Shown here one piece after another: positions 8,082-43,335 of a DNA stretch of 64,000 nucleotides. Position numbers and translations under genes: made by a program. The stretch's first letter is position 1, and each line of letters opens with the position of its first letter. The notes under the pieces are model-generated. The model did not search any database and had not been told where the DNA came from. It worked only from the letters and a program-made list of their open reading frames with translations. The DNA comes from Mariannaea sp. PMI_226 (taxonomy: Eukaryota; Ascomycota; Sordariomycetes; Hypocreales; Nectriaceae), in NCBI GenBank assembly GCA_024336345.1, contig JANFOG010000012.1:310001-374000 (forward strand), in the 5' to 3' direction.

Positions 8082-9413
8082 ATGGCGGATCCTCTAAGCA
8101 TAGCCGCTTCACTGGTGGCTGTGGTCACTGCCGCTATTACATCGACTGTGTCGCTCATCGACACAGTCAAGCGTTTCAAAGGTCGCAATAAGACTTTACA
8201 GAGGCTACAAGAGGAGCTCGAAGACCTCAGCAGCGTTTTGAAGGCGCTTAAAGACTCTATTGGTGCTGATATTTCGATACTGGCGCTCCTCGAAAGTCCA
8301 GTCAAGCGATGCGACCAAGTATGCTACGAATTTGAGAAGGCTATGCAAGAGTTCAGTGGCAAGCCAAAGGCGAGCATCCTAGACTGGGCGAAAATGGAGT
8401 TTAGGAGAGACAACATCAACGGATTCCTCGACACGCTTGCAGGATATAAATCCACTATTGCGGTTGGCCTAGGAACTATCAACTTGTGAGTTACATAACT
8501 CTGATGTCTTGGAACAGTTACTGAGCATCCTACTTTAATGCCCAGGCATACATCCAGAGTATCTCACCAAGTCCTCAAGGAGTATGGCGAGATAATCAAA
8601 GACACCGCGTACAATCTGAAAATCCATCTGCAGCGTATCGACGAGGAAATCGAACAGCTTCCGGCCGAGACCCCAGGCAATTCAAATTTCAATATCGACC
8701 TCGAAGACGAAAAGGCGATAACAGAGCAATGTCTTCGGATATGCGAAGACGCCAAAGCACATATAGATTCTTTGAATAACCGTGAACCGTCTCTGCAGTA
8801 CGGGACCTCATCAAGTTCCACTGCAAGTGAAACTCGGCGACAGTTCGAAGCGCAGTTGCTTACGCGCCAAGTTTTGAACGATAATCGAGATAGCTTCGCC
8901 AGAACCATCGGTCATCTTCGAAGCCGCCTGGAGTCCCTTACATTAGACGGATCACCTGGAAGAGATGAGGAGAGAAAAAGATTAATGGAAGACATTAACA
9001 TTTCCAAACAATGCTTGGAGGTGTGTAAGATGGCTTCTGACGAAGCCTCTCAAAAGAAAAGCTACATTGTTGGAGAGGCGATTGCTGAGGGCGAAAGCGA
9101 CCAACTGGTCGTTACCACTCTCGCTGACCTTTTTGATGTCAAAAAAGCATTCTCTAGAGGCGGATCAGCGCAGCTGATTGGCTCAATGACAGATGAGTCA
9201 CTCCAACAATTAACTGCGCAACGATATCAAAGCAAATTTGGAGCTGCTCAGAGCGACAAGGCTTCTTCCATTACTTCACCTTCAACTCTGCAGACTCGGG
9301 AGACGACTCACAGTTGGCTCCTACCCCAATCGAACAGGATGGATCAGATGCTAGATCCTGAAGCTGGAAATTTTAAACCGTCTCCCAATGAGATGAGAAA
9401 GAGGACTGGGTGA
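8082..9413 (+). CDS. HeLo-like / PigL_N domain protein, stand-alone
   Basis: Two exons, 8082-8485 and 8546-9413, give 423 residues. The N terminus (MADPLSIAASLVAVV...) is the signature of the fungal N-terminal domain of STAND proteins, Pfam PigL_N (PF17111), of the HeLo-like group: a hydrophobic first helix followed by helices containing KRFKGRNKTLQRLQEEL. In NLRs this domain is the death-effector module, and the free domain can act as a partner protein. Here no NACHT, NB-ARC, ankyrin or WD40 part follows. Two later stretches, about residues 195-230 and 300-320, repeat the pattern EEK..(I/L)..C(L/E)..C, as is usual in these proteins. The C-terminal 100 residues are polar and look disordered. 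I see no amyloid-type motif at either end. Its role is unknown, but a relation to immune-like or incompatibility functions is plausible. Confidence 0.85.
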
Positions 9414-22140: not shown

Positions 22141-23024
22141 GCTCTCAGTTTTGTCAACGCCACCATTTCCACCTCAATAAACAAACGCAACCATCAGCAT
22201 TCAAACACGCTCTCAATCATTCCCAATTGTGTGCCCAACAGATACAGTATTAACACCCTTTCTTACCAACCCCGGAAAGCTTTTAACAAATAACGACAAG
22301 CAGGTCTCGTCGACTGCCGACCCTCCTTCGTCAGCGACCCCTCAGGGGGGCAAAGACCAGACTCGCGAGGGACCACAAGCTCAAAAAGCTTCATTGCCTT
22401 TGCGCTATCAGAAGATATGTCACGAAATAGGTTCAGTATAATTATTCAGGAGTGAGCTTCCACATTACGGCTCACATTCGGTCCGATAAAGTCAGCAAAG
22501 GGTAAAAGGCCAACCAAAATCTGTTTCGTGCTACAAATGACAGGCATGATTACAGTCTTACTTGAAGTGCCCGAGCCCAGGGACGCCTTTCCAAGTCAAG
22601 GTAACCCTGACCATGAGCCTACTTTTACAGACAACTGAACCTGTTAGTTGGAAATGTCTTATTCATTACACCACTATCACCCAAACCACAGTCATCTCGG
22701 AGTTCAACAAAGCCATACGGTCAAGGATAATTAAGATGCCTCGTCTACTCATATTTCAATTCTGCAGCCCGTTCTTTTCAAAATAAATCTTTAGTACAAC
22801 TACTGGAGCCCATAGTCCAGTTTCAGATTGTGAGTACCTTCCGTCTTTACTCGCCTTGCCTTGAGATGCCTGAGGATGAGAATGGGAATCAGGCAACTTG
22901 GGAGGATAACATGAAGTCTTCGATTTCTTCTTGTCGCTCTTTTTTTCGAGTTTTCCTCGTTGCACTGCTTTCGTTCTCTGAGGGTTTTTTTTTCCACCTC
23001 GTGCTGTCCCCGGCCGCCGCTGTT
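22141..23024. other. Intergenic stretch
   Basis: No gene supported. The right end becomes GC-rich and pyrimidine-rich, running into the dispersed repeat. Confidence 0.4.
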
Positions 23025-23213
23025 GCTGCCGCCGTCGCCCTCGCCGTCGATTCCCGTGGCTGTCCTCCGTGTCGGCCTTGCCCCTTGCCCGTCCCCCCCG
23101 TCGTGGAAGACCTCTTTAGGTGTCCAGAGTCAGTACTCGTAAGAGGCTGACACGTTTCATTGACTTCGGTCATTGAAGGACTCCTTTAGTTGCTCCGAAG
23201 CGTTCGGTTGCTC
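23025..23213 (+). repeat. Dispersed repeat, copy 2
   Basis: The core 23096-23213 is the inverted copy of 14628-14749. The preceding GC-rich part (GCTGCCGCCGTCGCC, CGTCGATTCCCGTG) shows weaker similarity to copy 1. It ends 63 bases upstream of the ATG of the gene at 23277, so it occupies that gene's promoter and leader position. Confidence 0.8.
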
Positions 23214-23276
23214 CTCTCCGTCCCCGCTATTCCCAACTTTACCCCTTTTTACCACCACCCCCCCCCTCTTACCGCA

Positions 23277-23898
23277 ATGGCGCCCCGGCGATCAGATCAA
23301 ACTCCCTTCAAGGGAAACGCAGCTCCTAAAGACCTAGAGAGCTACGATAGTAAGGCTATAAACACAATCCGTCTACCGTAACTAACCATATCAAGATATT
23401 ACAGGAACAAACCCCCCTGTACAGCAGGCAACCCCCTCACTCCGCCGCTCTTGTAAGTGACCACACACAACTGGTTGAAGACTTTTATTAATTTATATAT
23501 ATAGCCCGCCTTGGGAATACTCCTGGCGAACTATTTGCTCTTCCCACCTCGACAATCTCTCGTCCAAAGCGGAAGCGTGAGTTCTAATCATCCCACGGCT
23601 GAATCAGCTAATCAATTATACAGATTCTGAGAACTCCTTGAATGAATTGTTCTCAAAGCCGTCGGTAGACAAGAAACGTCTCGCAAAGGCTACACTCTCC
23701 TGGACTGCCTTTCCTTCCCCTAGTCAGACCCTTACTCCGACGCCTCGCAGATCGACTCGGCTTGCAGCCTCTGCCCGTCCTTTGCAGCATGTTCGACGCA
23801 AAGTGGTAGACTGTACCGGCAGCGCGTTTGGAATAATTGATAGCAAGCTGCCCACTATCAACATGGACACACAAATCCAGTTTCTTCATAAGCTTTGA
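23277..23898 (+). pseudogene. Four-exon gene of unknown function, probably truncated by an early stop
   Basis: Exons 23277-23349, 23405-23452, 23505-23576 and 23624-23898 join in phase across introns of 55, 52 and 47 bp, each with clean GT-AG ends. The product has 155 residues and is basic and Ser/Pro-rich. It carries two similar short motifs, LRRSSRLGNTP and PRRSTRLAASA, of the kind found in chromatin or DNA-binding proteins. The TGA at 23896-23898 is followed directly by more than 30 open codons in the same frame with coding-like composition (MATFVPSRNASVRRFCDYTG). The ancestral protein was therefore probably longer, and the stop may be a CGA-to-TGA change. The family is not recognised. Position beside a dispersed repeat and a chromodomain relic suggests an element-derived or element-captured gene. 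Confidence 0.55.
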
Positions 23899-24489
23899 GA
23901 GGATTTAATGGCCACATTTGTGCCTTCGCGAAATGCCTCCGTTAGGCGATTCTGTGATTACACTGGAGAAGAATTTTTGTGGACGCCCGGTCAGTTTCCA
24001 TGAAATCCATCTATCCTCTAGTCAAATCCCAAGGTCAGGTTGGCTACCATGCGTCTCCCAATGTCGGTTTGGTTATGACGGCATTAAATTTTATTAAGCG
24101 CAACCATCCGACGGTAGTCCTTCGGTCCCGCTTTGTGTTCTAACTGCAACTTTTTTCCCCATGGTGTACGCATGGCTTTTCTTTCTTTCTCCTTTTTAAC
24201 CAAGGTTAGTTAGGTACTGTAATTTAGTTGGGTACCGTACTGTAACTAGTTAGTCCATTTCTTGGTGGATGATTCTCGCTGTGATCTTCCCGCGCGGGAT
24301 TTTGGCTGACTGCGAGGGGGTTAGGAGCTAGCGGCAAGGGTGGACCCTTCGACATTAATATCGTTGCAATATGTCCAGAATCGTCGTGCCTGGTCGAACC
24401 TGCGTCAACTCTTGTTAGGATTCTTGTGTGATATCTTCTCATTGCAGTGCTCTTGAACCCTGGTTCTCTTCCTAGGATGCCCAGAACTA
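23899..24489. other. Decayed sequence downstream of the truncated gene
   Basis: The first 100 bases remain open in the frame of the upstream gene. The rest, including a pyrimidine-rich block near 24150-24200, has no recognisable content. Confidence 0.4.
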
Positions 24490-26580: not shown

Positions 26581-27216
26581 ATGATGTCAGGACTCGAGAT
26601 CATTGGCTTAATCTCCGGTATTCTGACTATCCTTGACACAGTCTCAACACTCCATGAGGCGGTCCAAAACGCTCATGGTCTCCCACCCGCACTTCGCAAT
26701 ATAGCCCGACGGCTTCCGCTCGTCCAAGACACCCTCAAATCTGCCGAGGGACACATAAAGCAGAGTGGTGAGAATGAGACAACCTACGCAGCCATCAAAC
26801 CCATCATTGAAAACTGCAAGGAAAAGGCTGAGCGTCTGAGGGGCGTCCTCCAAGAAATGGCCCCCGAGACTGATCACTCAAGGTTCCAGCGTATCGGGCT
26901 GGCTATCCGCATACTCAGCAAAAGCCACCGGGCTGAGGAATTGATGAAGGGCTTGCTGGAAGATGCCCATCTGCTAGCAGGCAACAGAGCCATCAAGGCG
27001 GCCACCGAGGAGCAAGTGGCCGAGCTACGCAGAGCTGTACAGGAACTATCAGAAGTGTCTTCGTCGGGCCCCAATGGCAGCACATCGCCGATGTTTGCGC
27101 ATTACGGGACAGGCCATCAGTTGAATAATGCGGGCGAGGGCATTCAGAGAATCAACATGGGAGACGGGAAGCAGTTCGTTGCGCAGACAATGATCTTTGG
27201 GGAGTCTTGGGTGTGA
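26581..27216 (+). CDS. SesA-domain protein with C-terminal amyloid-type (sigma-like) motif, effector 1
   Basis: Intronless, 211 residues, starting at tandem ATGs. Residues 1-160 match the pattern of the SesA domain (Pfam PF17107, N-terminal domain of NACHT NTPases): GLEIIGLISGILTILDTV, then a helical bundle with LPPALRNIARRLPLVQDTL. The C-terminal residues 175-207 form a 33-residue Gly/Gln/Asn motif with three GxGxQ turns (YGTGHQLNN, AGEGIQ, GDGKQF) that is shared without gaps with the next gene and with the NLR downstream. In the sigma system first described in Nectria haematococca, such motifs are proposed to fold as amyloid and to be templated by the receptor, which then activates the effector's N-terminal domain. 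The role here is inferred from architecture and position, not demonstrated. The gene converges on effector 2 with 370 bases between stops. Confidence 0.88.
   Translation: MMSGLEIIGLISGILTILDTVSTLHEAVQNAHGLPPALRNIARRLPLVQDTLKSAEGHIKQSGENETTYAAIKPIIENCKEKAERLRGVLQEMAPETDHSRFQRIGLAIRILSKSHRAEELMKGLLEDAHLLAGNRAIKAATEEQVAELRRAVQELSEVSSSGPNGSTSPMFAHYGTGHQLNNAGEGIQRINMGDGKQFVAQTMIFGESWV
27103..27200 (+). other. Segment encoding the amyloid-type motif of effector 1
   Basis: Encodes residues 175-207. Sixteen of 33 positions are identical in all three cluster proteins: Tyr1, Gly2, Gly4, Gln6, Asn8, Asn9, Gly11, Gly13, Gln15, Asn18, Gly20, Gly22, Gln24, Ala27, Phe32 and Gly33. Confidence 0.8.
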
Positions 27217-27586
27217 ATTGAATCTTGGGTGAATTGACGACTGAGGGGCATGTTGCTGGTTTGGGTTACGCGTCGAGGTCTCTCATCTTTGGGAATAAAT
27301 ATCACGTCTCATACTTAACTAGTATTCGACCCCCAGTGTTGCACTGAAGGGTACTAGACTGGGCAAGGCAGTTGGACATCATAGGTATACTATATCTCAA
27401 CCATACTGATATAAGGCTCCATGTTGTAAGGGATTGCGCATACCTAAAGTCTTTCTTAACAGTCCTGTTGACCTCTGACCGTTAAAAGGTACCTAAATGT
27501 CCACCACCGAGGTACTCAGCCCACACCACCAGTTCTCACGATCTTGCCTTGAAAATAGAGTTGAACCAAGTTAGGGTGTGATGGAA
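27217..27586. other. Convergent spacer between the two effectors
   Basis: Both flanking genes end here, so it should hold their 3' UTRs. No gene seen. Confidence 0.5.
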
Positions 27587-28204
27587 CTATCTGGAACCGA
27601 AGTGCATCGTATTGGCATGATACTGACTCCCAGAGCCCATGTTGTTATTCTGAGTGCCTGACCCTGTGTTGTTGAGTTGGGGACCAGAGCCGTAATGGCC
27701 GAACTGGTTACCTCCCTCGTTAGGCATTGAAGGTTCCATCAGCGACAGCTCGTTGATAGCGCCGCGTAGTTCCTTGGCCTGTCTTTCGGTTGCTCTCTTC
27801 ACAGCACCATCCTCAGCGACAATAAGGACTGCTTGCATTATCCTTATCATTAAGACCTCCACCGCAGCCTCCTTGCCGTGTTGTCGCACAAGGGCAAAGT
27901 AGCGTGCCCTTCTCGACATCTGCGGTTCAAGAGCTATTTGCTCAAATATTTTCTGCAACAGTTCAATCTTGGTGCTGCATTCTTCTAGTGAACGTATTGT
28001 AACATCGCTTCCGGCAAGGTGAAGGGTTTCTAACTCGTTTCTGACAGCCTCGAGAGTTTGTTCAACAAGCCTAGGCCGTTGGCCCGTTTCGTGAAACGCT
28101 GGCGGGAGCTCTGTGTCGCCCATCAACGCCAGAGAGGCCTCCTCCACGATTTTGAGCGCAGCGATTGCGCCAGAGATAAAGTCGGCAATTTTGCCATCCA
28201 TCAT
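27587..28204 (-). CDS. SesA-domain protein with C-terminal amyloid-type (sigma-like) motif, effector 2
   Basis: Intronless, 205 residues, also starting at tandem ATGs. The SesA-type domain (residues 1-155) is recognisable (FISGAIAALKIVEEASLAL; LPPAFHETGQRPRLVEQTL) but has diverged well away from effector 1. The C-terminal 33 residues (171-203) stay close to the family pattern: YGSGPQLNN, TGSGTQ, GSGSQY and a final HFG. This contrast fits a protein whose signalling tail is constrained by the shared receptor while its effector domain varies. It is transcribed away from the NLR gene, with 506 bases between the two start codons, so a shared promoter is likely. No lipase-type SesB partner is present. 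Confidence 0.88.
   Translation of the reverse strand: MMDGKIADFISGAIAALKIVEEASLALMGDTELPPAFHETGQRPRLVEQTLEAVRNELETLHLAGSDVTIRSLEECSTKIELLQKIFEQIALEPQMSRRARYFALVRQHGKEAAVEVLMIRIMQAVLIVAEDGAVKRATERQAKELRGAINELSLMEPSMPNEGGNQFGHYGSGPQLNNTGSGTQNNNMGSGSQYHANTMHFGSR
27596..27694 (-). other. Segment encoding the amyloid-type motif of effector 2
   Basis: Encodes residues 171-203, the most regular of the three copies: each of the three turns has the form GSG.Q or GxGxQ with Asn-rich linkers. Confidence 0.8.
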
Positions 28205-28710
28205 TGGGTAAGTGATGAGATAAAGTTATGCTATCAATGTGCCAATTACACATGAACTGGCCAGGAAATGAGATTCCCAAGCCCAAACCAACTGCTGGCC
28301 TAGGGACATGAATGATTGAGAGGAGTGGTAACCTCCCCAGCTCCAACCACTTTGTCAAGTCCATTCTCAGCCACTCTCGACTTAGTTGCTTTCAACTGTC
28401 CTCGAGACGTCACCGTGGCTGATTTTCGACCCAATAGATCGCCTTGAAGGCACGCCTCGCCTGAAGCTGAGCGGCCGTTGCATTGACACGTGGCACCACT
28501 ACACAATAGTTGAGGCTCAATACTCGGCAGTGCATAGCGGAGAAAGAAACATACGGAATCCGTCAACGCGCCGCGAGATGTTGAACAGCAAACTTCACTA
28601 TATCTCTCAGGTAATTAAAAGCAGAATCGCCAAAGTCTACTTCTAGCTGGCTCCAAGAACTTCCAATTTCTTGCTTGAAGTCGTAGGTGTCTGATTCTTT
28701 TCCGCCAGTC
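28205..28710. promoter_or_regulatory. Divergent promoter region between effector 2 and the NLR
   Basis: 506 bases separate the two start codons, which face away from each other. Such head-to-head pairing is common for NLR and effector partners. I see no clear TATA box or named operator, so the assignment rests on gene order. Confidence 0.45.
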
Positions 28711-31700
28711 ATGTCACTTGACCGAAATTTCGATGGACAGAATGCGAGTGCCTGGAGCCAGCCTGTCAATTACGGACCCGGCACGCAGAGCAACAACACA
28801 GGCGACGGAACTCAAAATGTCAATTTTGGGGAGGGGCCTCAGTACAATGCGCGAAATCAGTACTTTGGTAGGGAATGAAGCCTAAGTAAACAGCAGACTC
28901 GCACAGCAATACAGCCAAGCTAATATTGTCTTGAATTCCAAGGTGTTTCGCAACCCGGACCCGAACCACGACAAGAATGCTTAAAATCACTTGCCTTTCC
29001 TGAGATGAATGATCGACCTAACGATATCGATGGCGCCGTAGAGGGGACGTGCGAATGGCTATCTCAACACCAGACCTACAAAGACTGGACCCGTCGCCAT
29101 CGAGGCTTGCTCTGGATCAAAGGAAAACCAGGCTCCGGGAAGTCGACGCTGTTAAAGCATGTGCTCCGAGCGACTGAAGCAAGGCCAGGTATCCAAAATG
29201 AGATAATAATCCTCTCGTTCTTCTTCCACGGGCGAGGCGGCGAACTTCAGAGAACGCCCCTCGGGCTCTTCAGATCGCTTCTTCATCAGCTCCTCAGCCA
29301 GGCGCCCGACGCAGTGTCACACGTCGTTGACGTGTTTGAACAGCGACGCAAGAGTATTGGAGAGGTGGAGATGAAGTGGCGATGGCATGTGCGCGAGCTG
29401 CTGGACTTCTTCAAGTCTTCCCTGCCCAAGGTCTTAGAGCGACGGTCGGTCATTGTCATTATCGACGCCCTAGATGAAGCTGGACAAGAGTGTGCAGTCA
29501 GCCTAGTCGACGATTTCAAGCGGTTAATGACAACACTCCCACCTACCACATCTAACTTCAGGATTTGCTTTTCATGCCGTCATTACCCTATTTTGGAGCT
29601 CGATTATGGATCGGTGATATGTCTGGAGTATGAAAATGGGCGGGATATTGCCGTTTTCGTGCAAGCCCAGTTTTCGAAGTCCCGAGTTAGAACGATATCC
29701 GCAATTACGAACACAATTACACGTGGAGCATCAGGCGTCTTCATGTGGGCACGTTTTGTTGCTAAACGGGTTCTGGAGCTTGAGCGCAAAGGGGAAAGCC
29801 TAGAAACGATCCAGGAGGAAATCGATTGCATCCCTCCTGATTTGGATGATATATACACCGGGCTCATCCAGAGCATGGAACAGAGGAAAGCATCCCGAAA
29901 ACTAATACAATGGGTCTGCTTATCTACGAGGCCTCTGTCGATAGATGAGCTACGATGGGCCATGGCTGTCGACTTCGACAGTTTATGTAAGTCACTGCGG
30001 CAGTGCCAGCAGTCAAAGAATTATGCATCGGACAACGAGGCGATGGAGAGGAAAATTACAACGCTCAGCTGCGGTCTTGCTGAGGCCGTACCGACGTCCG
30101 AAACAAGGGTCGTTCAATTCATCCACCAGTCGGTCAAGGACTTTTTCGTAAACAAGGGCCTATCAGCTTTGTTGGCCTTGGAGGGCGACTCGGTATCCAG
30201 TAATATGGCAGTCGGACTCGCACATTACAGCCTATCCAGGATCTGCATCCGCTACTTGGCAATGGAAGAGGTAGTTGAGTCGGCTGGCAAAAGTTGGACC
30301 TATTGGCCCAATGTCGATAGATTATACAATCCAAAAAGCAACATTCAAGAATACAAATTTCCTCTGCTACGGTATGCCGTGATGTTCGGTATGACTCATG
30401 CAAGAGAAAGTGAGACCAAGGGAGTGTGTCAAAAGGACTTATTAGAGTACTTCCGCTGGCCATCAAAACTTCTTCCACAATTATGGACACGCATTTGCTG
30501 GCTACGAGATGGATATTCTAATCATGACGAAGATGCCAACCTGGTACATGTGGTATCGAGGTATGGGTTACTAGGTCCGTTGCAAGTAATTTTGCAAAGG
30601 GCAGAGGAATTTATGGTTGATATTGATGGTGGTGATCGGACGCCGCTAGCATGGGCAGCATTGAATGGGCACGATGCTGTCGTCAAGCTGCTTCTCGCTA
30701 CGGGCAGGGTCGACATCAACATGAGAGATAAGGATGGTCGGACGCCGGTAGTATGGGCAGCATTAAAAGGGCGTGAGGCCATTGTGAAGCTGCTCCTCGC
30801 CACAGGCAGAGTTGATGTCAACATAAGAGATAACGATGGTCGGACGCTGGTAGTATGGGCAGCATTGAGAGGGGATGAGGCTATTGTGAAGCTGCTCCTC
30901 GCCACAGGCAGAGTCAATGTCGACATAAGAGATAACGATGGTCGGACGCCGGTAGTATGGGCAGCATTGAATGGGCACGATGGTGTCATCAAGCTGCTCC
31001 TCGCCACAGGCAGAGTTGATGTCAACATGAGAGATAATGATGGTCGGACGCCGGTAGTATGGGCAGCATTAAAAGGGCGTGAGGCCATTGTGAAGCTGCT
31101 TCTTGCTGCAGGCGGAGTTGATATCAACACAAAAGATTTCGTCTCTAAGCAAACACCACTATCCTTAGCAGCAGAGAAGGGGCATGAGGCTACTGTAAAG
31201 CTACTTCTTACTGCAGGTGGAGTTAATATCGACACAAAAGATTATAATGAGCAGACACCACTATCACTAGCAGCAAAGAATGGGCACGAGGCTGTTGTAA
31301 AGCTACTTCTTGCTACAGGCAGAGTCGATGTCAACATAAGAGATAACCGTTATAAGCGAACACCACTATCATTAGCAGCATTAAAAGGGTATGAGGCCAT
31401 TGTGAAGCTGCTTCTTGCTGCAGGCGGAGTTGATATCAACACAAAAGATTTCTTCTCAAAGCAAACACCACTATCATTAGCAGCAGAGAAGGGGCATGAG
31501 GCTACTGTAAAGCTACTTCTTACTGCAGGTGGAGTTAATATCGATACAAAAGATTATATCGAGCAGACACCACTATCACTAGCAGCAAAGAATGGGCACG
31601 AGGCTGTTGTAAAGCTACTTCTTGCTACAGGCAGAGTCGATGTCAACACAAAAGATTGCTTCTCTAAGCAAACACCACTATCATTAGCAGCAAAGAATGG

Positions 31701-32472
31701 GCATGAGAACATTGTTGAGCTCCTTCTTGCTACAGGCAGAGTTGACGTTAATGCAAGAGATAAATATAGTCAAACGCCACTATTACATGCAGCAGAGAAT
31801 GGGCATGGGAATATTGTCAAGCTGCTTCTTGTCGTGGGTAGAATACACGTTGATCCAAGAGATTATCTTGGCCGAACGCCGCTATCATTTGCGGCAAAAA
31901 ATGGGCGTACGAATGTTGTCAAATTGCTTCTCGCTACAGGCAGAGTCGATATTGATACAAGAGATAGTCGTGGTCGAACGCCGCTATCGTTCGCAGCAGA
32001 GTTTGGGCATATGGACGTTATTGAGCTGCTTCTCCCCACAGACAAAGTTGATGTTAATGCGAGAGATAATTTTGGTCAGAGGCCGCTATCATTTGCGGCA
32101 AGAAATGGGCGTACGAATGTTGTCAAATTGCTTCTCGCTACAGGCAGAGTTGATGTTGATGCAAGAGACAATCTTGGTCGAACGCCGCTATCGTTTGCAG
32201 CAGAGTTTGGGCACATGGACGTTACTGGGCTGCTTCTCCCCACGGACGGAATTGATGTCAATGCGAGAGATAATTCTGGTCGGACGCCCCTATCATATGC
32301 AGCAGAGTTTGGGCGCACAAACGTTATTAAGTTGCTTCTCGCCACAGGCAGAGTTGATGTTGATGCAAGAGATAATTCTGATTGGACGCCGGTAGCGTGG
32401 GCAGCGAGACGTCACAAATATCTCATGAGCGGGTGCGAGGATGCTATTAAGCTGATACGATCACATCGTTAA
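28711..32472 (+). CDS. NACHT-ankyrin NOD-like receptor with N-terminal amyloid-type (sigma-like) motif
   Basis: Two exons, 28711-28867 and 28943-32472, give 1228 residues. Residues 21-53 carry the 33-residue motif shared with both SesA-like neighbours (YGPGTQSNN, TGDGTQ, GEGPQY, YFG). The only intron falls exactly at the end of the motif. The usual pre-NACHT linker follows (ECLKSLAFPEM, then GTCEWL). The NACHT domain has Walker A GKPGSGKS near residue 113 and Walker B VIIDALDE near residue 226, then the RxxxSxR-like ICFSCRHYP. From about residue 616 to the end are 18 ankyrin repeats of 34-35 residues. Family knowledge predicts ligand sensing by the repeats, NACHT-driven oligomerisation and templating of the effector tails. 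The start at 28711 is the first ATG; an in-frame GTG lies 24 bases upstream. No stop or frameshift is present. Confidence 0.93.
28771..28867 (+). other. Segment encoding the amyloid-type motif of the NLR
   Basis: Encodes residues 21-53 and is complete except that the last Gly codon is split by the intron. It makes up nearly all of exon 1, so the motif sits on its own exon. Confidence 0.8.
30633..32440 (+). repeat. Array of 18 ankyrin-repeat units with recent internal duplications
   Basis: Units are 102 or 105 bases. Blocks 31081-31392 and 31393-31704 (three units, 312 bases) are nearly identical, including silent sites. Units at 30733 and 31039 also repeat at a 306-base spacing. Later units alternate two types (GRTNVVKLLL and GHMDVIELLL), indicating a two-unit amplification. 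Such homogeneity marks concerted evolution of the sensor domain, as known for HET-E/HNWD repeats. Long antisense and shifted-frame ORFs across this region are by-products of the repeats. Confidence 0.92.
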
Positions 32473-34255
32473 CCTCCACCCTACCGATCATCCGCTTCAA
32501 CGGCTTTTCTCACACATTCCCTGCAGCCGGCAAGCAGAAGTTGATGGCAAGTGAGATATTTGCATGCAAGTCTGATGAAAAAAGGAAGGAGAGAAATGTT
32601 GGAATGCCGACTTGTAGCTAGCAAAACTCGCAAATAGGATCGCTGGTTCCCTTAGCGCTTCTTAATCACATCCTAGCAGGAAACAGAGAATTTTGGTGGG
32701 AGCTTCTACTATATTGTCCTAGGTAGATAGGACGTCAAATACGACCAGTCCGGGTCATCACACATTCATGTATATTTTATCGAGTCGACATCTTAGCTTA
32801 CTTCCAGCACCGGAGTTTCATGACCCGATTTGTCTTGCCGGTTCTAGGCGAGTTAGATCATAACAGAACCAAATGGTCAGAAAGTATGTAAAAGACCCTC
32901 TTTCTCTCTGCTATCCTTTGCCTGTCTATCAACTATTAGCCATGTTTTATTACACTCTCTTGCCTTAAATCTAGCACAATTTACAGGTCCAGGTGTTAAT
33001 TTTCTTTTTACCCTTTGAAGGAACAAATTATCCCACTCCCATACTTGCGGCCTCTACGACTTCTGGTGTGCTTAACAGCTAATTTGCATCATTATCGAAG
33101 GATCTCTCTGTCATCTAATGGGATTACTTGGGGTTTAGAAAATGGTGGTAACTAGTTGGGCCAATTCAGTGAGCAACTAAACGTTACAACCGGTAGCGCC
33201 GAGCTAGCAGCAGACTGCATTGGCCCTTCGCATTCGCAGGAAAGCACATGCATTACATTGTCCCAGTGACTATTCCGCCTGCTACACGTGATTAACATGT
33301 TCGCGAGGGTTTTTAGCACAACATCAGATTCATTGATGGATACATATCCGAAGCTATTCATATCGGAAATTGTGGAGTCATAGAGACTGGAGAAAGGGTA
33401 TGTCGTAGCATCCAACGCCCCTATTGAGCTGTCTTTAGTGTCCTCTAACTCCAAGAAAACATGGCAGAAAATTTGACTTAAGAAAAGGCAAGCGAGACGA
33501 GATAATGGTAGAAGGATGAAAAATTGTGTTGCTCATGCATACTGGCCAAAAGCTATCTCAGCTTGAGAAGTGAACAAAACAATATTTCCCAAATACCTCC
33601 ATTAAGTGCGAAGAGCCAACGGCTCTGTTTGGTCTTTTCTCTAGAGGGTACATGGGTTGAAGCCAATAAATCGCTCCGAGCACCAGGCTCGGTTTGTTAC
33701 AAACCTCCCGTGACTTCTTCCTTGTTAAAGTCCTGATTTGGAGAAGTCAGCCACAGATCAGCACACAAAGGGAGTCAACTACAGACTCTACGCAGTCCAC
33801 TGTCAGAGTAGGTTCTTTTGTACGAAACGACAGACGCTCCTCTTCCTGCAATTGTTACTTCATCCGATCCTTTCAAGAGAACAAGGGTACATCCGCAAGG
33901 AATTGATTGACTACACTCCTAATTTATGTGAAATTATTTTGATTTTAGGTCAATTATCCAAATGAGTCAGTAAGAGTCCCGATTAGAAGCGCTCTACCCA
34001 CAGGCAATAGGTCCGTATTTGCGGAAAAGGCGATACAACATTGTCATGAGGTTCTGAGATGCAGTCGAGTGCTCCAATGTCTCAGTGAAGTGGATGCAAA
34101 TTCGTGTTCAAGGGAGATGTGCTTTGCAGAAGTGGTTGCCTGCCATTCTGCCCTGCTTCTGATCGGCACGAACCCTGAACCATCGCTTTTACTTCGTCCA
34201 AGTCTCTAGTTTACAAGTGAACTCATCCCTTCGTTTACATTATCATCAATAAACC
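32473..34255. other. Intergenic stretch
   Basis: About 1.8 kb. A minus-strand ORF near 33152-33454 has a plausible composition but lacks a start codon other than TTG and has no splice partner. Nothing else is supported. Confidence 0.4.
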
Positions 34256-36022
34256 ATGGCCGATAAGTCGTCTGTCATTTCTCTGAACCAGGAGGCGATC
34301 CTCCCAACCGCTTTCGTGGCAGAGACAAACCCTACAGTTCTGGCTCCAAATGTTACTTGGGAAGTCACAAATGGGGAAGTTCAAGGTGCAAACACTCATG
34401 AACATTCTCTTACAGCTCGCCAGGCCCTATTGTCCTATCCATGGGCTGTCTTTTGGTCTCTGGTCATCAGCATGTCCATCGTCATGGAAGGCTACGACAC
34501 CATCTTGATTGGCTCTCTCTATGCCTATCCAACCTATGCTCACCGATTTGGCAAATATGATGCGGCGACCGATACTTGGCAGGTGGAAGCCAAGTGGCAG
34601 AGTGCTACAGGCACTGGTTCCCAGGCGGGTGCCATTGTCGGTGCCCTCCTGAACGGTTTTATAATCCATCGATTTGGCTATCGGCCAGCTTTCATGGTAG
34701 GGGTGGCTTTGATGACGGTCTTCATCTTCGTATCCGTTTTCGGCTTGTCTGTTGAGCTGCAGGCTGTAGGACAAATCCTCTGCGGGTAAGTTCGGGTATT
34801 TGGTGAAGCGCCCATTGTATCTAGTTGCACATCTGAATGCCGTCTGACTTGGCTATTGCAGGATTCCATGGGGTATCTTTGCGACTATTGGCCCTGCTTA
34901 TGCTTCAGAGCTGTGCCCCCTTCCTCTCCGGGCTTATCTCACTGCTTACACCAACACCTGTTTTGCGACTGGTCAGCTCATTGGCGCCGGGATCCTCAAG
35001 AGTTTCATCAACCGTGACGATGACTGGGCGTGGCGTATCCCTCTTGCTTTACAGTGGCTGTGGATTCCATTGCTTATTGTCAGCGCCGCCTGGATGCCAG
35101 AATCACCTTGGCACCTGGTCCGTAACGGTCGATATGCTGAAGCAGAGAAGATTGTCCTGGGTTTGATGACCGAACAAGAGAAGCCGCAGGCACGATCTCT
35201 GGTAGCTCTTACGATTCACACCAACGATATCGAACGAAGAATTGCTGACGGAACTTCTTACTGGGATTGCTTCAAGGGCATTGACCTTCGCCGTACTGAG
35301 ATTGCTTGTGTTTCGTTTATTGGCCAAGTCACTTGCGGTGCCCAATTCGCTTACTCTGCTACCTACTTCTTCCAGCAAGCTGGTCTAGATTCAGAGACCA
35401 CTTACACGTTAAACCTCGGTGGTACGGGTATCGCTTTTTGCGGAACTATTGCTTCTTGGTTTTTGATGAAACACGCCGGACGCCGGACCTTGTTTCTGAC
35501 TGGAATGTCTATCATGAGTTTGTGGCTTTTTATCATTGGCTGCCTGGCCATCAATACCCATAACCCGGTTGTCAAATGGATGCAGTCTACCCTCTGCCTG
35601 GTTTGGCTTCTCACCTATTCGCTTACTGTTGGCCCCGTTGGTTGGATCATGCCAGCTGAAGTCTCGTCAACCCGCCTTCGATCCAAGACTGTTGTACTAG
35701 CCCGAGTCTCGTATTACATTGCACAAATCATTGCCAACATTATTCAGCCCTACATGATGAACCCTCAGGCATGGAATTGGAAAGGTAAAGACCATTAAAT
35801 CTCTATTACTACCCTGGGTTGATTTTGCTGATAGTTCTTGTAGGTAAAACCGGTTTCTTCTGGTTTGTTTCCGCGTTTTTGACAGTAGTTTGGGCCTTCT
35901 TCCGTCAGCCCGAGACCAAGGGACGAAGTAACAGGGAACTTGACCTCATGTTTGAGGCTAAGCTTCCCACAAGAAAGTTTAAGGAGTACCAAGCTGATAC
36001 CTACGTTGAGAAAAAAAGATAG
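34256..36022 (+). CDS. MFS sugar transporter, alpha-glucoside (maltose) permease type
   Basis: Exons 34256-34785, 34862-35784 and 35844-36022 give 543 residues, the usual length for the sugar porter family, with about 12 predicted membrane segments. Recognisable features include EGYDTILIGSLYAYP in segment 1, NGFIIHRFGYRPAF between segments 2 and 3, PESPWHLVRNGR at the start of the central loop, the GRR motif after segment 8 (KHAGRRTLFL), VGPVGWIMPAEVSSTRLRSK between segments 10 and 11, and the terminal PETKGRSNRELD. These place it in the proton-coupled maltose/alpha-glucoside group of plasma-membrane permeases. The actual substrate cannot be decided from sequence. The frame is intact. Neighbours give no pathway context: no glucosidase gene is adjacent. 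Confidence 0.93.
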
Positions 36023-36928
36023 ACACATGTAGATGGGTAAGTGTGCTGAATATCTCAAAGTAGTCCTCAGATTAGGCTTTTAAACAATGGACGATCAGAC
36101 GCACGAAGCGTTAAAAGGTTAAAGCGATTTCTCAATGCCAACTTCCTTATTTCCCTGCCACTGCCTCTATCTATCATGCAAAATGAATTAAAGACAATGC
36201 AGTGTAACACAATCGACTCTTTGTCGTTCGGTTATAAAATCAACAATTGGTTATATTTCGAGGCGTTCGACACGTCGTCCGCAAGTTTACGTGTTATAGC
36301 TATCATTGGCTAAATCAGAATTACGCTATTTTAGACGGAGTAGACATCAAGTTGTGTTAGATGATCAAGTATCTAAGTTGGTATATCTGTTGACAAGAAC
36401 TATCCGGCATCATGGATTGAAATGAGAATAAGTTTTTCAAAGTCAGAATAGTAATAGAATTTGCGATCACGGTTGGAAATTCATTATTAATTACTAGGGG
36501 AAGGCATATATTTTTCTCCATCTGTATGCGTCCCTCTCGGAAATTTCATCTGTCTTGGTATTGAGGATGACATCATCGAAGTGTAAGCCAAAGTAATGGG
36601 CTGCGCCAACTGTCACTTCGCCGCAGTCACGGCCATGACTACTGTAACATGTCATGCTCATATTTTTCTTCCATACTTGCAATAAAAACTTATGCTACTT
36701 GCATAATTTTGATTGGTAAATCGCATCTAATATTATAGTGCTTTAGCGCAGACATAAGCCAAGGCCGTGTGACGAGGTTTTCTTATGTGCCAAGTCGACC
36801 CCCAATGGCAGTGAATGGAAATTCTATATAATCCGAGACATCTCACCTTTGATGAATCATTAGTCGTCTTCCATCCCCTCAATCTCTTTCATCATACTCC
36901 CCCTTATCGTTGAAGCCCCATTGCTCCA
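36023..36928. other. Intergenic stretch
   Basis: Contains a 55-codon minus-strand ORF (36494-36658) with two Cys (TCYSSHGRDCG) that could be a small exon. No partner exon was found. The last 110 bases form the promoter of the next gene. Confidence 0.4.
36825..36831 (+). promoter_or_regulatory. TATA box of the first alpha/beta hydrolase gene
   Basis: TATATAA about 100 bases upstream of the ATG at 36929, followed by a CT-rich leader. Confidence 0.45.
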
Positions 36929-37750
36929 ATGAAGCCTACCATCGCATTCGTTCCTGGTGCTTGGCACACCCCGAGCCACTACTCAGCCTTCCTGCAGAAA
37001 TTGAGTGATGCTGGTTATCACGTCACCTCTGAGAAGCTCCCTTCTGTAGGAGCTACAGAACCCAAAGATCAGAGTGTAGCTGCAGATATGGCTATTATCC
37101 GAGAAAAGGTTCTTCTACCAGAGATTGAGCAGGGCAAGGACATCATCATGATCATGCACTCGTACGGTGGCTTTCCTGGATCAGCCGCAGCAAAAGGCTT
37201 CAGCAAATTAGAAAGAACTGCTGCTGGCAAGGCCGGGGGGATTATTGGCATGATTTTTATGTGCGCATTTGTGGCGAATGAGGACGAGTCACTGCAAAGC
37301 AAACTTCCAAACGAGCAGTTTGGGGACTGGATGATCGTAAACGTACAGAACGCAGACGCCCCATGTCTCGGACAGTTTCAACGCTGACTCAGTGAACAGG
37401 AAGAGAGTGGCCAGCTTGGCCTTAACAAGCCTGAAAGTGTGTTTTACAACGGTATTGAGAACAACCTTGTCGAAGCTGCCCTTGGTGGCTTGCAAAGCCA
37501 TGCGCTTGCCGCCTTCACCACTCCTAGCCCTCCACCTGCATGGAAGGATGAAGTATTCAACGGACGGCGTGCATATATCAAGTGCCAGAACGACATGGCA
37601 ATTCCAATTGTGGCGCAAAAGATGATGGTAGAGTCCACTGGATTGGACTGGCAGGAGTTGGACCTCGACGCCAGCCACTCCCCATTTCTGACCCATAGCG
37701 ATGAGATGTGCGAGTTTATAGAGAAGCGTGCAGTGGAGTGGACTAAGTAG
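36929..37750 (+). CDS. Alpha/beta hydrolase-fold protein 1
   Basis: Two exons, 36929-37342 and 37400-37750, give 254 residues. The family pattern (Pfam Abhydrolase_6 type) is clear: VPGAWHTPSHY with the oxyanion-hole strand, the nucleophile elbow MHSYGG with Ser78, and a C-terminal HSPF with the catalytic His near residue 231. The elbow reads IMHSYGG rather than the common GHSxGG. No signal peptide is present, so a cytosolic enzyme is expected. The substrate is unknown. It resembles the hydrolase at 39.9-40.7 kb on the other strand in length and motif spacing. It has no amyloid-type tail, so it is not the SesB partner of the NLR cluster. Confidence 0.9.
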
Positions 37751-39247
37751 GATATTGCTACGGATGTGATTCTGCATAATTACATGAATACTTCGAGCAT
37801 CTTGAGTTTGATATGGAATGAACTTTACCCATTTGTCTTCTGAATCTATACAGTAACCTAGTTTAAATCTTCGTTCTAGCAAAGAGCTCTCAGATTGAGC
37901 ACTCTACTTCTCCCATCTCACGCAGCTGAGGTGAGATCTCGGCACAGCAAGCCGCTGATATGCCTTATATGGCGTCACTTACAGACCACTGAGAGGCTTC
38001 CATATTCCATATAGCTAGCGTGTCAACAATGTGCCGACCTCATCGACAGCCATCAGGGGAGAAGGCCCAAGTGAGGGTGTGGAGACGGTACAAATGCTCA
38101 CCTATCATGCTTATTTTATAGCCAACTTTGGTAGTTTCATGCTTATTTTTTGTGAAAGAAAAAAGTAATAGAGGCTGGAGGCAGCTGACAGTACATCAGC
38201 AGAAGCTTGTCTCACCAATACCTCCGTTATCACACGGAGCTACTAGCAGCTAAAATCACGGCAGATCGCAGTAGCGAGCCAACTACTATGTAATAGCTGC
38301 ATGGCTAGCCCAGCTATGATTGAACGCCTTGGATATTTGGGCCGTCAGAATTGTGCAAGTTGCACTATATTTGTACATAGTAATGCTTGGCACAGAGGCA
38401 CTGCCAACTGCTCTGTTGGTGCCACCAAGAAGAAATATGTGGAGATTTTCGCAGAGCTGTGCCGCCGAGCTCATTCACCAGAAGCTCCACCACCAAGGTT
38501 GAAACTCCTCTCCAGGTATGAATTCTTCCGTTTTGTCACGATAGGCAGGTCGAATAGACCTCAATACTTTGAATAGCCAGGGGTCAGCATTTGCGGAAAA
38601 GGGTATAATGAGCACAGGCGCAGAGACGCCTGGCACCAACGAAACCTTTTTTCCTTTCCTTCGTCCCTCTCTTTCGAACACCAATATTTTGGATTGTTCA
38701 GTTGACGTTCGTGGTGTGTGGGTGGGTTACCGAGATCCGTGCCCCATCCAAGGGACCCATACGTGAACGGCTGGGATGGGAAAGCAAGAGAGAGCTGCTG
38801 GTCAATCGCATGTGACAGCTGTAAAGCAAGCAATACTGCCATTGAATAATTTCAGTCCGAGATCTCAAACTACAATTTAACGCAAAATAGCAGAAGAAAA
38901 AGAAAAGTAATCAACAAATCTTATAGAGTTGTTCGCTCAAGTTGGGATTGAGACTGGGCTATGAACAGGATCAGGATCTCTCTGTGGGCCGTCGGCCCAT
39001 CGGTTCGGTTAGGCTATGCATCGTAGCATCCAGGACTTTACCCATTTTCGTAAGGCATTTCTTCCCTCCCCCACGACACAGACACAGACAAACGAATTGC
39101 AACCAACCACGTGGCTCTCTCGAGCTGCACAACTTAGACTCTATGCATCTCACACAAAAATTCAAGCTACTATCAGATAAACTCTTTATATACGACCTGG
39201 GCAACGCTGCCAGCATCAGCCAGCCCCGTAAGGGCCTTCTGGCCCAC
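37751..39247. other. Intergenic stretch upstream of the tRNA
   Basis: About 1.5 kb, no supportable gene. Short ORFs near 38300-38580 show no family content. Confidence 0.4.
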
Positions 39248-39379
39248 GGATCGATAGCTCAGTGGTAGAGGTTAGTGATCCATATGTCTTACCATCATTC
39301 TTCAACTCCATATACTAACAAGCCAAACAGCGAGAGATTGCAGATCTCTAGGTCGCGTGTTCGATCCACGCTCGGTCCT
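39248..39379 (+). tRNA. tRNA-Cys(GCA), interrupted in the D arm by a 60-bp intron-like insert
   Basis: Exon parts 39248-39270 and 39331-39379 join to a 72-nt tRNA. The acceptor stem GGATCGA pairs with TCGGTCC (one G-U). The D stem GCTC pairs with GAGC, whose last C is in the second part. The anticodon stem AGAGA/TCTCT encloses the loop TTGCAGA, anticodon GCA. The T arm is GCGTG-TTCGATC-CACGC. The discriminator base is T, as expected for cysteine tRNA. A box (TAGCTCAGTGG) and B box (GTTCGATCC) are intact. The insert lies after the third base of the 3' D-stem strand, not at the usual 37/38 position. If the insert is not removed, the D stem cannot form normally. A decayed tRNA copy is the main alternative, but no other base deviates. 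Confidence 0.88.
39271..39330 (+). other. Insert in tRNA-Cys with full spliceosomal-intron signals
   Basis: The 60 bases begin GTTAGT, contain TACTAAC with its branch A about 13 bases before the end, and finish AAACAG. GTTAGT is also used as donor by four introns of protein genes in this window (cerato-platanin twice, the gene at 25060 and the SGNH hydrolase). Exact removal restores a perfect tRNA. No bulge-helix-bulge geometry at the canonical tRNA intron site is present. Confidence 0.7.
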
Positions 39380-39382
39380 TTC

Positions 39383-39387
39383 TTTTT
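39383..39387 (+). terminator. Pol III terminator of the tRNA gene
   Basis: A run of five T, with T2-3 just before it, starts a few bases after the mature 3' end. This is the standard RNA polymerase III stop. Confidence 0.75.
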
Positions 39388-39863
39388 GCAACTTGCTCAT
39401 CTAACAGTTATTTTGCTTCTTGGATAACTCACAGTATTAAATCAACTTCGGAACCGGGACATCGCCCAGCCACGACTTGTGGACTTTAACACACTTCTTC
39501 ACCCCCACTCTCGTTTCACCATGTTCTCAGGTTTATCTCAAACATGACAAAACCTCGCTGAGAAAAACAATATCCTCGGCCGATGCCGCAGCTTTATGTA
39601 TGACTGTCTTTCTGCATCAAAATACATACAGATCTTTATCTATCGAAGCGAATATAGACTATGTATTTCCCTAGACAACACATGCTTCCGAAAATTACAT
39701 CACATGCCAGCCGATTTAGCGGGCCGTCAAATCGCTCCGAAGCCCACACACACACGCACACTCACACTGATACATTTCAGATACCCGCGCTAATCTAGCT
39801 GTGGACCTGGATTAATTACAGTAACCAGTTTTCGTTCCTGCATCTGCTCTATCTTAAACGTAT
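39388..39863. other. Spacer between tRNA and hydrolase 2
   Basis: No gene seen. Contains a CACACACACGCACAC stretch near 39749. Confidence 0.5.
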
Positions 39864-40715
39864 TTATGCCTCAACAGCCTGAATAGCAACAAGCAGCTTA
39901 TCAGGCACGCTCAAGAACGGGCAGTGGCCCGCCTCAACGGTAGCGGTTCGGGGCTCAGGGCCAAGCTGAAGAGCCATTTGCTGCTGTATGGGGTGAGGTA
40001 GGGCGTTGTCGTTTGAGCAGAAGATGTACTTGCAAGGGACCCCGTTTGCCCAAGGCTCATAATTCGAGGGAGTAGCGAAAAGCGCCGCCGAGGTGTGCGT
40101 CATCTCCTGGACCCATTTGGCTTGATCCTCCGCATTCAGGTCATTGAATGCCACCTGAGGCAGCATTTCGAGGTTACCAGAAACACGGTCGCCCTAAAAG
40201 ATTTCACCGATTAACATAATAGGCTAGTATCATCGGCTTCGTAAATGACGAACTTGTATATCCATCCACGGCAGAGGTTGACCCCCCAGCATATCCATCA
40301 GGCTTTTGCCCTTGGGAATCATGAAAGCGGACAAGTAGATGATGCCGGTGACATCAAATCCAGGAACAGAGTTGCTTCCAACAACGCCACCAGAGGAATG
40401 ACACAGAAGGACCACCTTCTTACCCTCGTTCGAGAGCTTGGTAAGGACAGCCTGAACCTCTGCAACATCCTCAGCTAGCCCAGCCAAAGGAAGCTCAGTG
40501 CCACCGACCGTTTTGAGAGGCACATACTCAGTGGGGTACCCAGCTTGGTTCAACTTTTCTTGGAACCCGTCCCAAGCGATGGGCTTTTGCCATGACCCAG
40601 GGACAATGACTACCAAAAGAAAATTATAAGACACCAGTTCTCTGACGAAAAGAGTAATGAAATCTGACGATGATGGGAACTCACCAATGGTTGGTTTGGC
40701 CTGAATACTCGACAT
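39864..40715 (-). CDS. Alpha/beta hydrolase-fold protein 2
   Basis: Three exons, 40715-40685, 40609-40254 and 40193-39864, give 238 residues. The first exon holds only ten codons plus one base (MSSIQAKPTI). Joining restores the family start TIVIVPGSWQKPIAWDGF. The nucleophile elbow is LCHSSGG with Ser82. The C-terminal EAGHCPFLS provides the catalytic His. The middle contains YIFCSNDNALP, the usual acid-residue strand. The protein belongs to the same small Abhydrolase_6-type group as hydrolase 1, three kilobases away and on the opposite strand, but the two differ too much to be a recent duplication. The substrate is unknown and there is no signal peptide. Confidence 0.9.
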
Positions 40716-41919
40716 ACTGGTGGAGATGGCGGGTGATACACCTTGTAACTTCTGCAAGGGAAGAGGCTGTGGAGACGCAAGGAGAAGATGGGGCCCAAAA
40801 AGCAAATAGGCGCGAAGGAACAAATTAAGACTGGCTTATCCTAATATTCCTAACGCGTACAAAAGGGTAATAAGTGAGAAACAATCTACACATGAAAGAC
40901 GGAGTTCTGCAACTTGTGTTTAAGTACTTGGAGAGGAGGGGAGGGGTGCATAATCTTCTTCTGTGTCAATGAAGCCACGATCTGGAGTTGGGCGGGGGCA
41001 AAACGGTGGGAGAGGGGGGCTGGAGGCTCAGGCAATCACAAGGCTAAAAACAACAAGGACTGAGAAATATGATCATGTTTAGTAAAGATTATGAGGCAAG
41101 GGGAACCACATGTCATCCCAACGCGGCCGGCAACTTTGCCATGGATAGGGAACTTGCGACAACGAAAACCAGGGGTCCTTCTTGTCATAACCAGTAACGA
41201 AACAAACATGTCTGCAGGGGCAAAGAACATGCCTAGGTAGTGGACGTAATTTTCCCGGGAACAAGAAGGCACTAGATCAGAGTTCGTACGTTTGAATGGA
41301 GTCTTGTGTAACTAGCAGGGCAGCAGGGCGATGTCATTACCCTATGAGGTTAACTGTGGACTACTTCGGGGATAAAGGCTGTTCCTGTTGAATGGGGAAT
41401 GTAACGCTCAGGCGAACTTTTGGAACTACGTGCCGCATCGCTTAAGCAAACCCCCCCATGCATCAAGAGGGACCCTTGATGTATCACACAGTGGACTTCA
41501 ACGGCTTGACGGCTGGAGAAATGCAACCGCAGTTCCCAATGAAATTCTTTTGCAGGAAAACTTGCTTCATTCAGCAAGTGTATCTCCATACCTACGTAGA
41601 ATCATCCCACCTACAGCCAGGGTATCCCCCTCATCAATCCCTGGTCACTCTCCAGTTGTTGATCCCGATCTGCGGGTTTTCAGGAGTGTCAAATTTGACC
41701 TGCGCGTATCAAATCTATCTTTGAGAGAATCCTTGCGGAGAGATTCTGCCGATATCTTGCTCAAGTTCCCAGTAATATATGCTGTCCCTTCACCCACCAT
41801 GCCTATGCGAATCCGAAAAAAAAAACCGTCCACTCCCCATGTCTCTTTACCTCTTTTACAATTCATCACGACGACGGCCCTGAGCTCTTCTTTTTGAGCT
41901 CTTTTGAGCGGGGGCGAAC
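40716..41919. other. Intergenic stretch
   Basis: About 1.2 kb, no supportable gene on either strand. The final part is pyrimidine-rich, as is usual before fungal start codons. Confidence 0.4.
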
Positions 41920-43335
41920 ATGGCATCGATCCGGAGAGAGTACGATGAGGCGGCCGCAAAGGCTGCCTACATAGACGAACTGCACAAGCAAGCTAAGCTG
42001 CAGGACCTGACCCAGGACTTGACGAATCCAACAAGGAATCTAAGCATTGCGTTTACCGTGATCGGTGTATTTTTCGTCGGCCTACGGTTTTTGGCCCGCA
42101 AGCGGCAGGGTGTTCATATTGGTTATGATGACTATCTAATGATTTTTGCCATGATTTTACTGCTTGGCAATTTCATTTTCAACATGATTTGTAAGTCTTT
42201 GTACTTCATCCAAAAGCCTTTTTCAGTCGATAATCATCTAACATATGGTTTAAGTATTGAAACAAGGCGTCGGAAAACACTCTGGTGCATTGACAGTAGA
42301 CGAGCTCGCAACGCTGAACAAGGTAGATAGTTATAACAAACTGCGATGAGAGAATTCAGAAGAAAACGAACAGTCTGCTAACATTAGACTTTCTAGACCC
42401 TAGTCGGTGCAGAAATTGTTTACGTCACGGCCGTCAACGTGTATAAGATCTCGCTCCTCTTCCTCTACAACCGCATCTTTCCTCTTCGAAGCATACGACT
42501 CGGTAGCTACATTTGCGGAGGCCTTTCTACCGCATGGAACCTGGCTTGCATCTTCGCTGCTACATTCCAATGCAATCCTCGGGCGAAGATATGGGAGCCC
42601 TGGCGGGATGGATTCTGCATCGACCTGTTCCTAACACAACTTTGCATTTCTATTCCTACGATAATGTGTGACGTTGCGATTCTTGCGTTGCCGATACCCC
42701 ATGTTTGGAAGCTGCAAACAAATAGAACACAGCGTATCCTTATCACCGGCATCTTTCTGCTAGGGTCATATGTCGTTTTCACCAGCTGTTACAGATTCTA
42801 CGTTTACTTGCATTACAGCAAGTCTGACATACCATGTATGGGCAACTAAACCTACCAGCCAGTGCCACGAAGAATCTCTTGCTAATATTCTATACTAGAT
42901 ACTCTAGCAATGCCCATCGCTTGGAACATCATTGAAGTATCCAGTGGAATTGTCTCAGCGTGTCTGCCAACCCTCGGCCCATTGGTCCGCCTCGTTTTCA
43001 CCTCTCTATATCCGTCCTCGATGCAACAAAGCCACGGCCACGGATACTCAAAGACGACCTCCAACGGGCTCCAAACGATCGGCGGTACGGGACAACCGTC
43101 TACTCGCTCTGGTGGGTGGAACAATATCCAAAGTGGCCATATGAACGACAGTGGTGAATTGGGAGTTTTAGGACCGTCAAAGCCTGTCAGTGGCGTAAAT
43201 GTTACGATATCTTACAACAGAGATAAGAGTGGTGACGATTCAAGTAACGACGAGATTCCTCTCACATCTGTTTCCCAACAGAAAAGGGGACAAAGTTCGG
43301 CAATGTCAAGTGGAAAAGTCAATAGAAACTATTAA
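41920..43335 (+). CDS. Fungal rhodopsin-domain integral membrane protein (PTH11-like group, no CFEM)
   Basis: Four exons, 41920-42190, 42255-42322, 42397-42835 and 42899-43335, give 404 residues. The pattern is that of the fungal rhodopsin domain (Pfam PF20684): a first membrane segment, the conserved YDDYLMIFAM, GVGKHSGAL, then YVTAVNVYKISLLFLYNRIF, a WNLACIFAATFQCNP segment, and about seven membrane helices ending near WNIIEVSSGIVSACLPTLGPL. The last 110 residues are hydrophilic, Ser/Gly-rich and probably cytosolic. Relatives are often called PTH11-like G-protein-coupled receptors, but receptor function is shown for few of them. No N-terminal CFEM cysteine pattern or signal peptide is present. 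Confidence 0.88.

Follow-up and report, generated by a model that had tools for sequence, protein, structure and literature searches.

What kind of system is encoded by three genes, two for SesA-domain proteins and one for a NACHT-ankyrin receptor, that are packed into 5.9 kb of the genome of Mariannaea sp. PMI_226? The window analyzed here is a stretch of 64,000 nucleotides (contig JANFOG010000012.1, positions 310,001 to 374,000) from a source assembly of 42.2 Mb in 25 contigs. The cluster lies on the contig labeled C4 (the others named below are C20, C23, and C24) at window positions 26581-32472, with SesA1 (+), SesA2 (-), and the receptor (+) side by side. An earlier note, made from the sequence alone, had proposed a sigma-like cluster of a NOD-like receptor (NLR) and its effectors. 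We find it very probable that the cluster is a sigma-type, trans-acting NLR/effector unit, whose mechanism we infer from its family. Its features, in window coordinates, are as follows.

26581-27216, + strand: SesA1, a SesA-domain protein with a C-terminal sigma motif, 211 amino acids (aa); PF17107 and PF17106 above cut-off.
27100-27201, + strand: sigma motif of SesA1, residues 174-207; alignment and shuffles.
27587-28204, - strand: SesA2, a diverged SesA-domain protein with a C-terminal sigma motif, 205 aa; PF17107 and PF17106 above cut-off.
27596-27697, - strand: sigma motif of SesA2, residues 170-203; alignment and shuffles.
28711-28867, + strand: receptor exon 1, N-terminal leader and sigma motif; PF17106 at 23.3 bits and pairwise shuffles.
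28768-28866 plus a split codon, + strand: sigma motif of the receptor, residues 20-52, its last Gly codon split by the intron; alignment.
28868-28942, + strand: predicted receptor intron, 75 bases, phase 1, GTAGGG...CCAAG, within the last Gly codon of the motif; frame analysis.
28943-32472, + strand: receptor exon 2, NACHT, winged helix, and ankyrin repeats; PF24883, PF05729, PF22939, and ankyrin families.
30636-32391, + strand: ankyrin array, made up of 17 full units (34-35 residues each), of which some are nearly identical; repeat analysis.

The sigma motif consists of three GxGxQ units and is common to the receptor N terminus and both SesA C termini. The three sequences align ungapped over 34 columns, 16 of them invariant (Y G G Q N N G G Q N G G Q A F G), in agreement with the 33-residue motif of 16 invariant positions and three GxGxQ turns that the earlier note had described; domain matches and alignment likewise confirm its placement, C-terminal in two SesA proteins and N-terminal in the adjacent receptor. 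When the composition of each sequence was kept and shifts of up to 5 were allowed, 0 of 20,000 three-way shuffles reached 16 invariant columns (maximum, 5), and the pairwise scores of receptor exon 1 with the SesA1 tail and with the SesA2 tail were each reached by 0 of 5,000 shuffles. PF17106 (NACHT_sigma; cut-off, 27.6 bits) was matched by the SesA1 tail at 34.5 bits and the SesA2 tail at 31.9 bits (hmmscan). A six-frame search of the whole assembly with the same model (E up to 10; four first-look candidates, all four scored) returned three matches at the cluster (37.2, 35.5, and, for the receptor, 22.2 bits, E = 0.009) and one elsewhere (15.2 bits, E = 1.36). Within the reach of this search, the sigma motif is nearly confined to the cluster, which argues for a dedicated channel. 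The Pfam matches in both tails, the SesA domains, and the tight clustering together uphold the proposal of a sigma-like cluster.

The motif is biased in composition toward G, N, and Q, as it would be if the likeness were due to chance or plain low complexity, but the shuffle results and the Pfam matches make that explanation exceedingly improbable. The earlier note had named chance low-complexity sequence as one finding that would overturn its proposal; the shuffles indicate otherwise. The base sequences give no support to a recent gene conversion or copying event in the motif. The copies share 59 to 61 of 99 bases, and third codon positions agree in only 13 to 15 of 33; the likeness has therefore been maintained in the protein and does not stem from recent copying.

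Both candidate effectors carry a domain of the class known from sigma clusters, and each gene is a single uninterrupted, intronless open frame. PF17107 (SesA) was matched by SesA1 at 118.5 bits (E = 2.5e-34) and by SesA2 at 82.4 bits (E = 3.6e-23), in the latter case across 119 of 122 positions (hmmscan). Between the two proteins, 48 of 153 body residues (31%) and 21 of 34 motif residues (62%) are identical. Searches for relatives found three proteins with SesA1 and two with SesA2, the window's own included. The nearest to SesA1 are from Thelonectria olida (82% identical) and Dactylonectria macrodidyma (71%), and the nearest to SesA2 is a SesA protein of T. olida (72%). T. olida belongs to the Nectriaceae, Hypocreales. 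Because both SesA genes have a relative in this species of a related genus, the pair probably predates the species split. A PDB sequence search with SesA1 gave no match, and the HET-S HeLo domain was not among the 50 listed rows of a structure search, which excludes nothing.

The two SesA proteins need not share one role. Against its T. olida relative, SesA2 retains 29 of 34 motif residues (85%) and 103 of 155 body residues (66%), the reverse of the SesA1 pattern given below. This better-conserved tail, the more diverged SesA domain by PF17107 score, and the lack of a confident predicted fold would suit a SesA2 that acts as a tag-carrying modulator (decoy or amplifier) instead of an executioner, as HET-s does beside HET-S. 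However, the SesA match still spans nearly the whole model at a highly significant E value, and no inactivating change of the stop or frameshift type was seen in SesA2, so that we regard a modulator role as somewhat unlikely. Damage from repeat-induced point mutation (RIP) was not seen in the five cluster segments tested. Across the window, both simple RIP thresholds were met by 6 of 126 one-kb intervals (for example, 22501-24000, plus four other 1-kb stretches), with 0 in the cluster.

The receptor (28711-32472, +) is predicted to encode 1,228 aa and requires one intron, with a frame that is stop-free to 32472. Two candidate splices keep the frame; by frame analysis 28868-28942 is the most likely intron, and the alternative acceptor at 28975 loses 11 residues and changes the last Gly of the receptor motif to Glu. 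By hmmscan, NACHT families PF24883 and PF05729 and ankyrin families are matched above cut-off, the winged-helix family PF22939 falls just under it (25.4 bits; cut-off, 27), and exon 1 matches PF17106 only, likewise below cut-off. Walker A (GKPGSGKS) and Walker B (VIIDALDE) motifs are present in the NACHT domain. The predicted protein thus has the STAND layout, NACHT plus repeats, without an effector domain of its own.

Over a 31-residue core, the ankyrin units have a mean pairwise identity of 62% in protein and 72% in DNA, and the most alike pairs share 97.8% of bases. Within the array (also examined with Tandem Repeats Finder), one 312-base block is duplicated at 288 of 312 bases, pointing to recent unequal exchange. 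Internally similar repeats are described for a fraction of fungal NLRs and tied to rapid diversification (PMC4986451; PMC9815663); only part of this array shows such high internal similarity. Genome-wide, 23 NACHT-region matches were listed, 2 of them the receptor itself. Among the best other NACHT loci, L021, L023, and L026 carry a PNP_UDP_1 phosphorylase domain in front, above cut-off; L022 is PNP-like by eye, yet gave no PNP match at an E value of <=1e-5. Because three of these loci bear PNP_UDP_1 in front, the receptor body and the sigma exon may have different kin.

How does the cluster compare with known systems? As in the Ses locus of Nectria haematococca (sesA, sesB, het-eN), there is a SesA of similar length with a C-terminal sigma motif and an NLR with an N-terminal sigma motif, a 5' intron, and ankyrin repeats (per PMC3321046). 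In contrast, a SesB lipase is present there and a second SesA here, a comparison drawn by description and not residue by residue. The six-frame genome search gave no further sigma match that would mark a sigma-bearing SesB lipase, including in the hydrolase frames at 36914-37384 and 40233-40835, and the cluster is therefore, as judged from its gene content, not an orthologue of the full Ses locus. A genome search with PF17046 ("Ses_B") returned two matches, below cut-off and outside the cluster; because that model is described as a misnamed PP motif (PMC12261475), the search tests PP and not SesB.

The earlier note had presented the receptor as using ankyrin repeats instead of WD40. The ankyrin receptor stands; the departure from the N. 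haematococca locus does not, as HET-eN is itself described as displaying ankyrin repeats (PMC3321046). Nor does the implied novelty of an ankyrin receptor with two SesA genes survive, because Daskalov et al. (2012, PMC3321046) already report sigma clusters whose receptors have ankyrin repeats, clusters with two sesA copies side by side, and clusters lacking sesB. Taken one at a time, the main features of the cluster are thus all published, and the cluster is a new example of a known system. Sigma clusters of Fusarium and dermatophytes are likewise described as effector/STAND clusters that vary in gene orientation and in the repeats; sesA occurs as two neighboring copies in some, and others lack sesA or sesB (PMC3321046). 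They differ in species and sequence, and are likened here by description and not residue by residue. Elsewhere, sigma is reported in 71 NLR sequences, with four combinations of HeLo-like and sigma (Wojciechowski et al. 2022, PMC9815663), and one Fusarium oxysporum genome is reported with 17 sigma motifs and one new SesA-NLR pair, "GDQN" (2025, PMC12261475). HET-S/NWD2 of Podospora anserina (HRAM motif) follows the same logic, an effector C-terminal motif matching the N terminus of the neighboring NLR, but has another motif family and a HeLo effector. HELLP/SBP/PNT1 of Chaetomium globosum also has one receptor and two effectors with a common motif (PMC5485727), but uses the PP motif with HeLo-like and putative lipase effectors. 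The cluster is a member of neither. Being small and intact-looking, and having two SesA effectors but no sigma-bearing lipase, the sigma unit described here would allow the role of SesA to be tested without SesB.

By analogy with its family, the sigma-type unit would work in five steps. The ankyrin array would sense a ligand; the NACHT domain would oligomerize; the N-terminal sigma peptides of the receptor, brought side by side, would adopt a beta-solenoid or amyloid fold; this fold would template the matching C-terminal tails of SesA1 and SesA2 (the SesA1 tail is predicted to be unstructured); and the gathered SesA helical domains would become active, most probably either as executioners that kill the cell by acting on membranes or as a self-propagating switch like the Secteur of N. 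haematococca. For this cluster, amyloid formation, templating, and the outcome, whether cell death or a prion-like switch, are thus expectations. The s1 allele of SesA is described as a Gly-to-Glu change at the SesA end (Graziani et al. 2004, PMC516043), and this change plausibly lies in the sigma motif.

The final step could also be weighted differently, with the cluster serving primarily as a bistable developmental switch, in a self-propagating cytoplasmic state like Secteur, with immunity second and cell death not the main output. The sigma element of N. haematococca is reported to require SesA (PMC516043), and SesA1 is close in length to the N. haematococca SesA (211 versus 210 codons). 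However, SesB, whose s* mutants are reported to lose the growth alteration and keep the pigment (PMC516043), has no sigma-bearing counterpart in this genome search, and we consider a primarily developmental switch unlikely. At the templating step, the motif might instead serve as a tag for non-amyloid docking, holding receptor and effectors together in a condensate or a soluble complex. No computation here shows amyloid, and G/N/Q-rich repeats are also able to drive condensates, but a synthetic het-eN sigma peptide is said to form fibrils in vitro (an unpublished result quoted in PMC3321046), and a docking tag appears very unlikely.

Several results weigh against the sigma-type unit. The PF17106 match of receptor exon 1 is under cut-off (E = 7.2e-5). 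Receptor residues 1-62 used as a query scored nothing among four candidates (weak evidence; the search needs shared 5-residue words and annotated 5' exons). Against T. olida, the SesA1 motif (26 of 34 residues, 76%) is less conserved than the body (135 of 158, 85%). The published pattern, in which motif extensions group by cluster and not by orthologue (PMC3321046), was not reproduced at this depth: the SesA1 motif shares 26 of 34 residues with each of two orthologues and 21 of 34 with SesA2, so that motifs resemble those of their orthologues more than those of their cluster partners. On the structural side, a Foldseek search gave no PDB match at an E value of <=0.001, the MLKL rows of the structure search fall in the range common for helical bundles, and the SesA2 model is unusable (mean predicted local distance difference test score, 41). 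Finally, even in N. haematococca, the case for the sigma motif as carrier of the infectious element is described as indirect in a 2021 review (PMC7889193).

Is the sigma channel the only one of its kind in this genome? PF17107 gave seven matches, two in the cluster and five elsewhere. On C20, a SesA frame lies ahead of a NACHT-ankyrin frame and lacks, by eye, a G/N/Q-rich tail. On C24 (L013, C24:471000-480900, 1796-6974), a SesA frame is followed by NACHT and WD40 frames, with a Gly/Asn-rich linker; the frames could be joined by splicing out a phase-1 intron of 278 bases that falls in a terminal FG codon. At about 2.224-2.229 Mb of C23 (L012, C23:2223000-2232900), a free SesA (1230-1883) sits beside a SesA-NACHT-WD40 gene (from 2364-3006). 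The pattern GGxGQQNNPxGGxNTFxSGYN recurs in the free tail and in the cis linker; 29 of 56 tail residues and 44 of 149 SesA body residues are identical. At about 1.836 Mb of C23, a SesA gene (L004:1246-1899, -) is divergent to an ankyrin NLR (L028, C23:1836000-1843500, 1538-5469). Its tail and the receptor first exon, which is provisional, share an ungapped stretch (TTN, IVG, and GSG.F blocks; score 72, 0 of 5,000 shuffles). PF17106 matched 0 of 4 tails of these other SesA loci (E <= 10) and did not match the receptor start at 1.836 Mb (E <= 0.1).

Four free tails were compared with four receptor-side segments, 16 pairs in all; for the segment from C24 there is no free partner. The four same-locus pairs all had scores reached by 0 of 5,000 shuffles (72 to 142). 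Among the 12 cross-locus pairs, SesA2 versus the C23 linker was also reached by none (score 63), two pairs were reached by 1 and 11 shuffles, and nine by at least 111. With the SesA-domain ends removed, the same-locus pairs kept 0 of 5,000 (4 of 4; 72 to 132), SesA2 versus the C23 linker was reached by 4 (score 57), and the other eleven by 52 to 4,296. In both runs, the highest score of each tail was with its own neighbor. That the tails of two further SesA-NLR loci match their own neighbor but not PF17106 suggests separate channels; given the likeness of SesA2 to the C23 linker, the tail at 2.224 Mb may be a distant sigma relative.

Tentatively, at somewhat less than even chances, we propose that at least three distinct SesA-NLR amyloid channels operate in this genome, each insulated from the others by its own tail: canonical sigma and two more, one of which (C23, 2.224 Mb) would have an all-in-one SesA-NACHT-WD40 receptor whose tag is common to the adjacent free SesA. 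Parallel channels without cross-seeding are described for other motifs in P. anserina (PMC7889193), and the cis-plus-trans design at C23 would be the newer part of this proposal; for the two tail types, the literature was searched by words and not by sequence. If the proposal is true, the self-contained C23 receptor could also recruit, and amplify via, a second effector. The cluster and the two other loci form a natural set for the specificity of short amyloid tags, and the same set bears on the interconversion of cis and trans receptor designs.

Likely phase-1 introns occur at the boundary between N-terminal module and NACHT in five NLR genes (window 28868, L012:3007, L013:2412, L023:1415, and L026:1422); L021 and L022 have no intron at this boundary. 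In the first three, the intron lies in the terminal FG codon, and we considered this position as a sign of homologous sigma exons. That idea was rejected: because the PNP_UDP-NACHT genes L023 and L026 likely share the phase-1 intron, the phase is not specific to sigma. As a sign that N-terminal modules have been exchanged as exons, the pattern is weak.

Elsewhere in the window, a frame at 8505-9410, about 17 kb from the cluster, matches the C-terminal part of PF17111 (PigL_N, a HeLo-like family). The region 34253-42846 holds ordinary neighbors: sugar transporter frames, two alpha/beta hydrolase frames, and a fungal rhodopsin-domain frame. At 4891-5376 and 50585-57210 there are an APH phosphotransferase-like frame, GDSL-lipase-like frames (below cut-off), and a cytochrome P450 frame.

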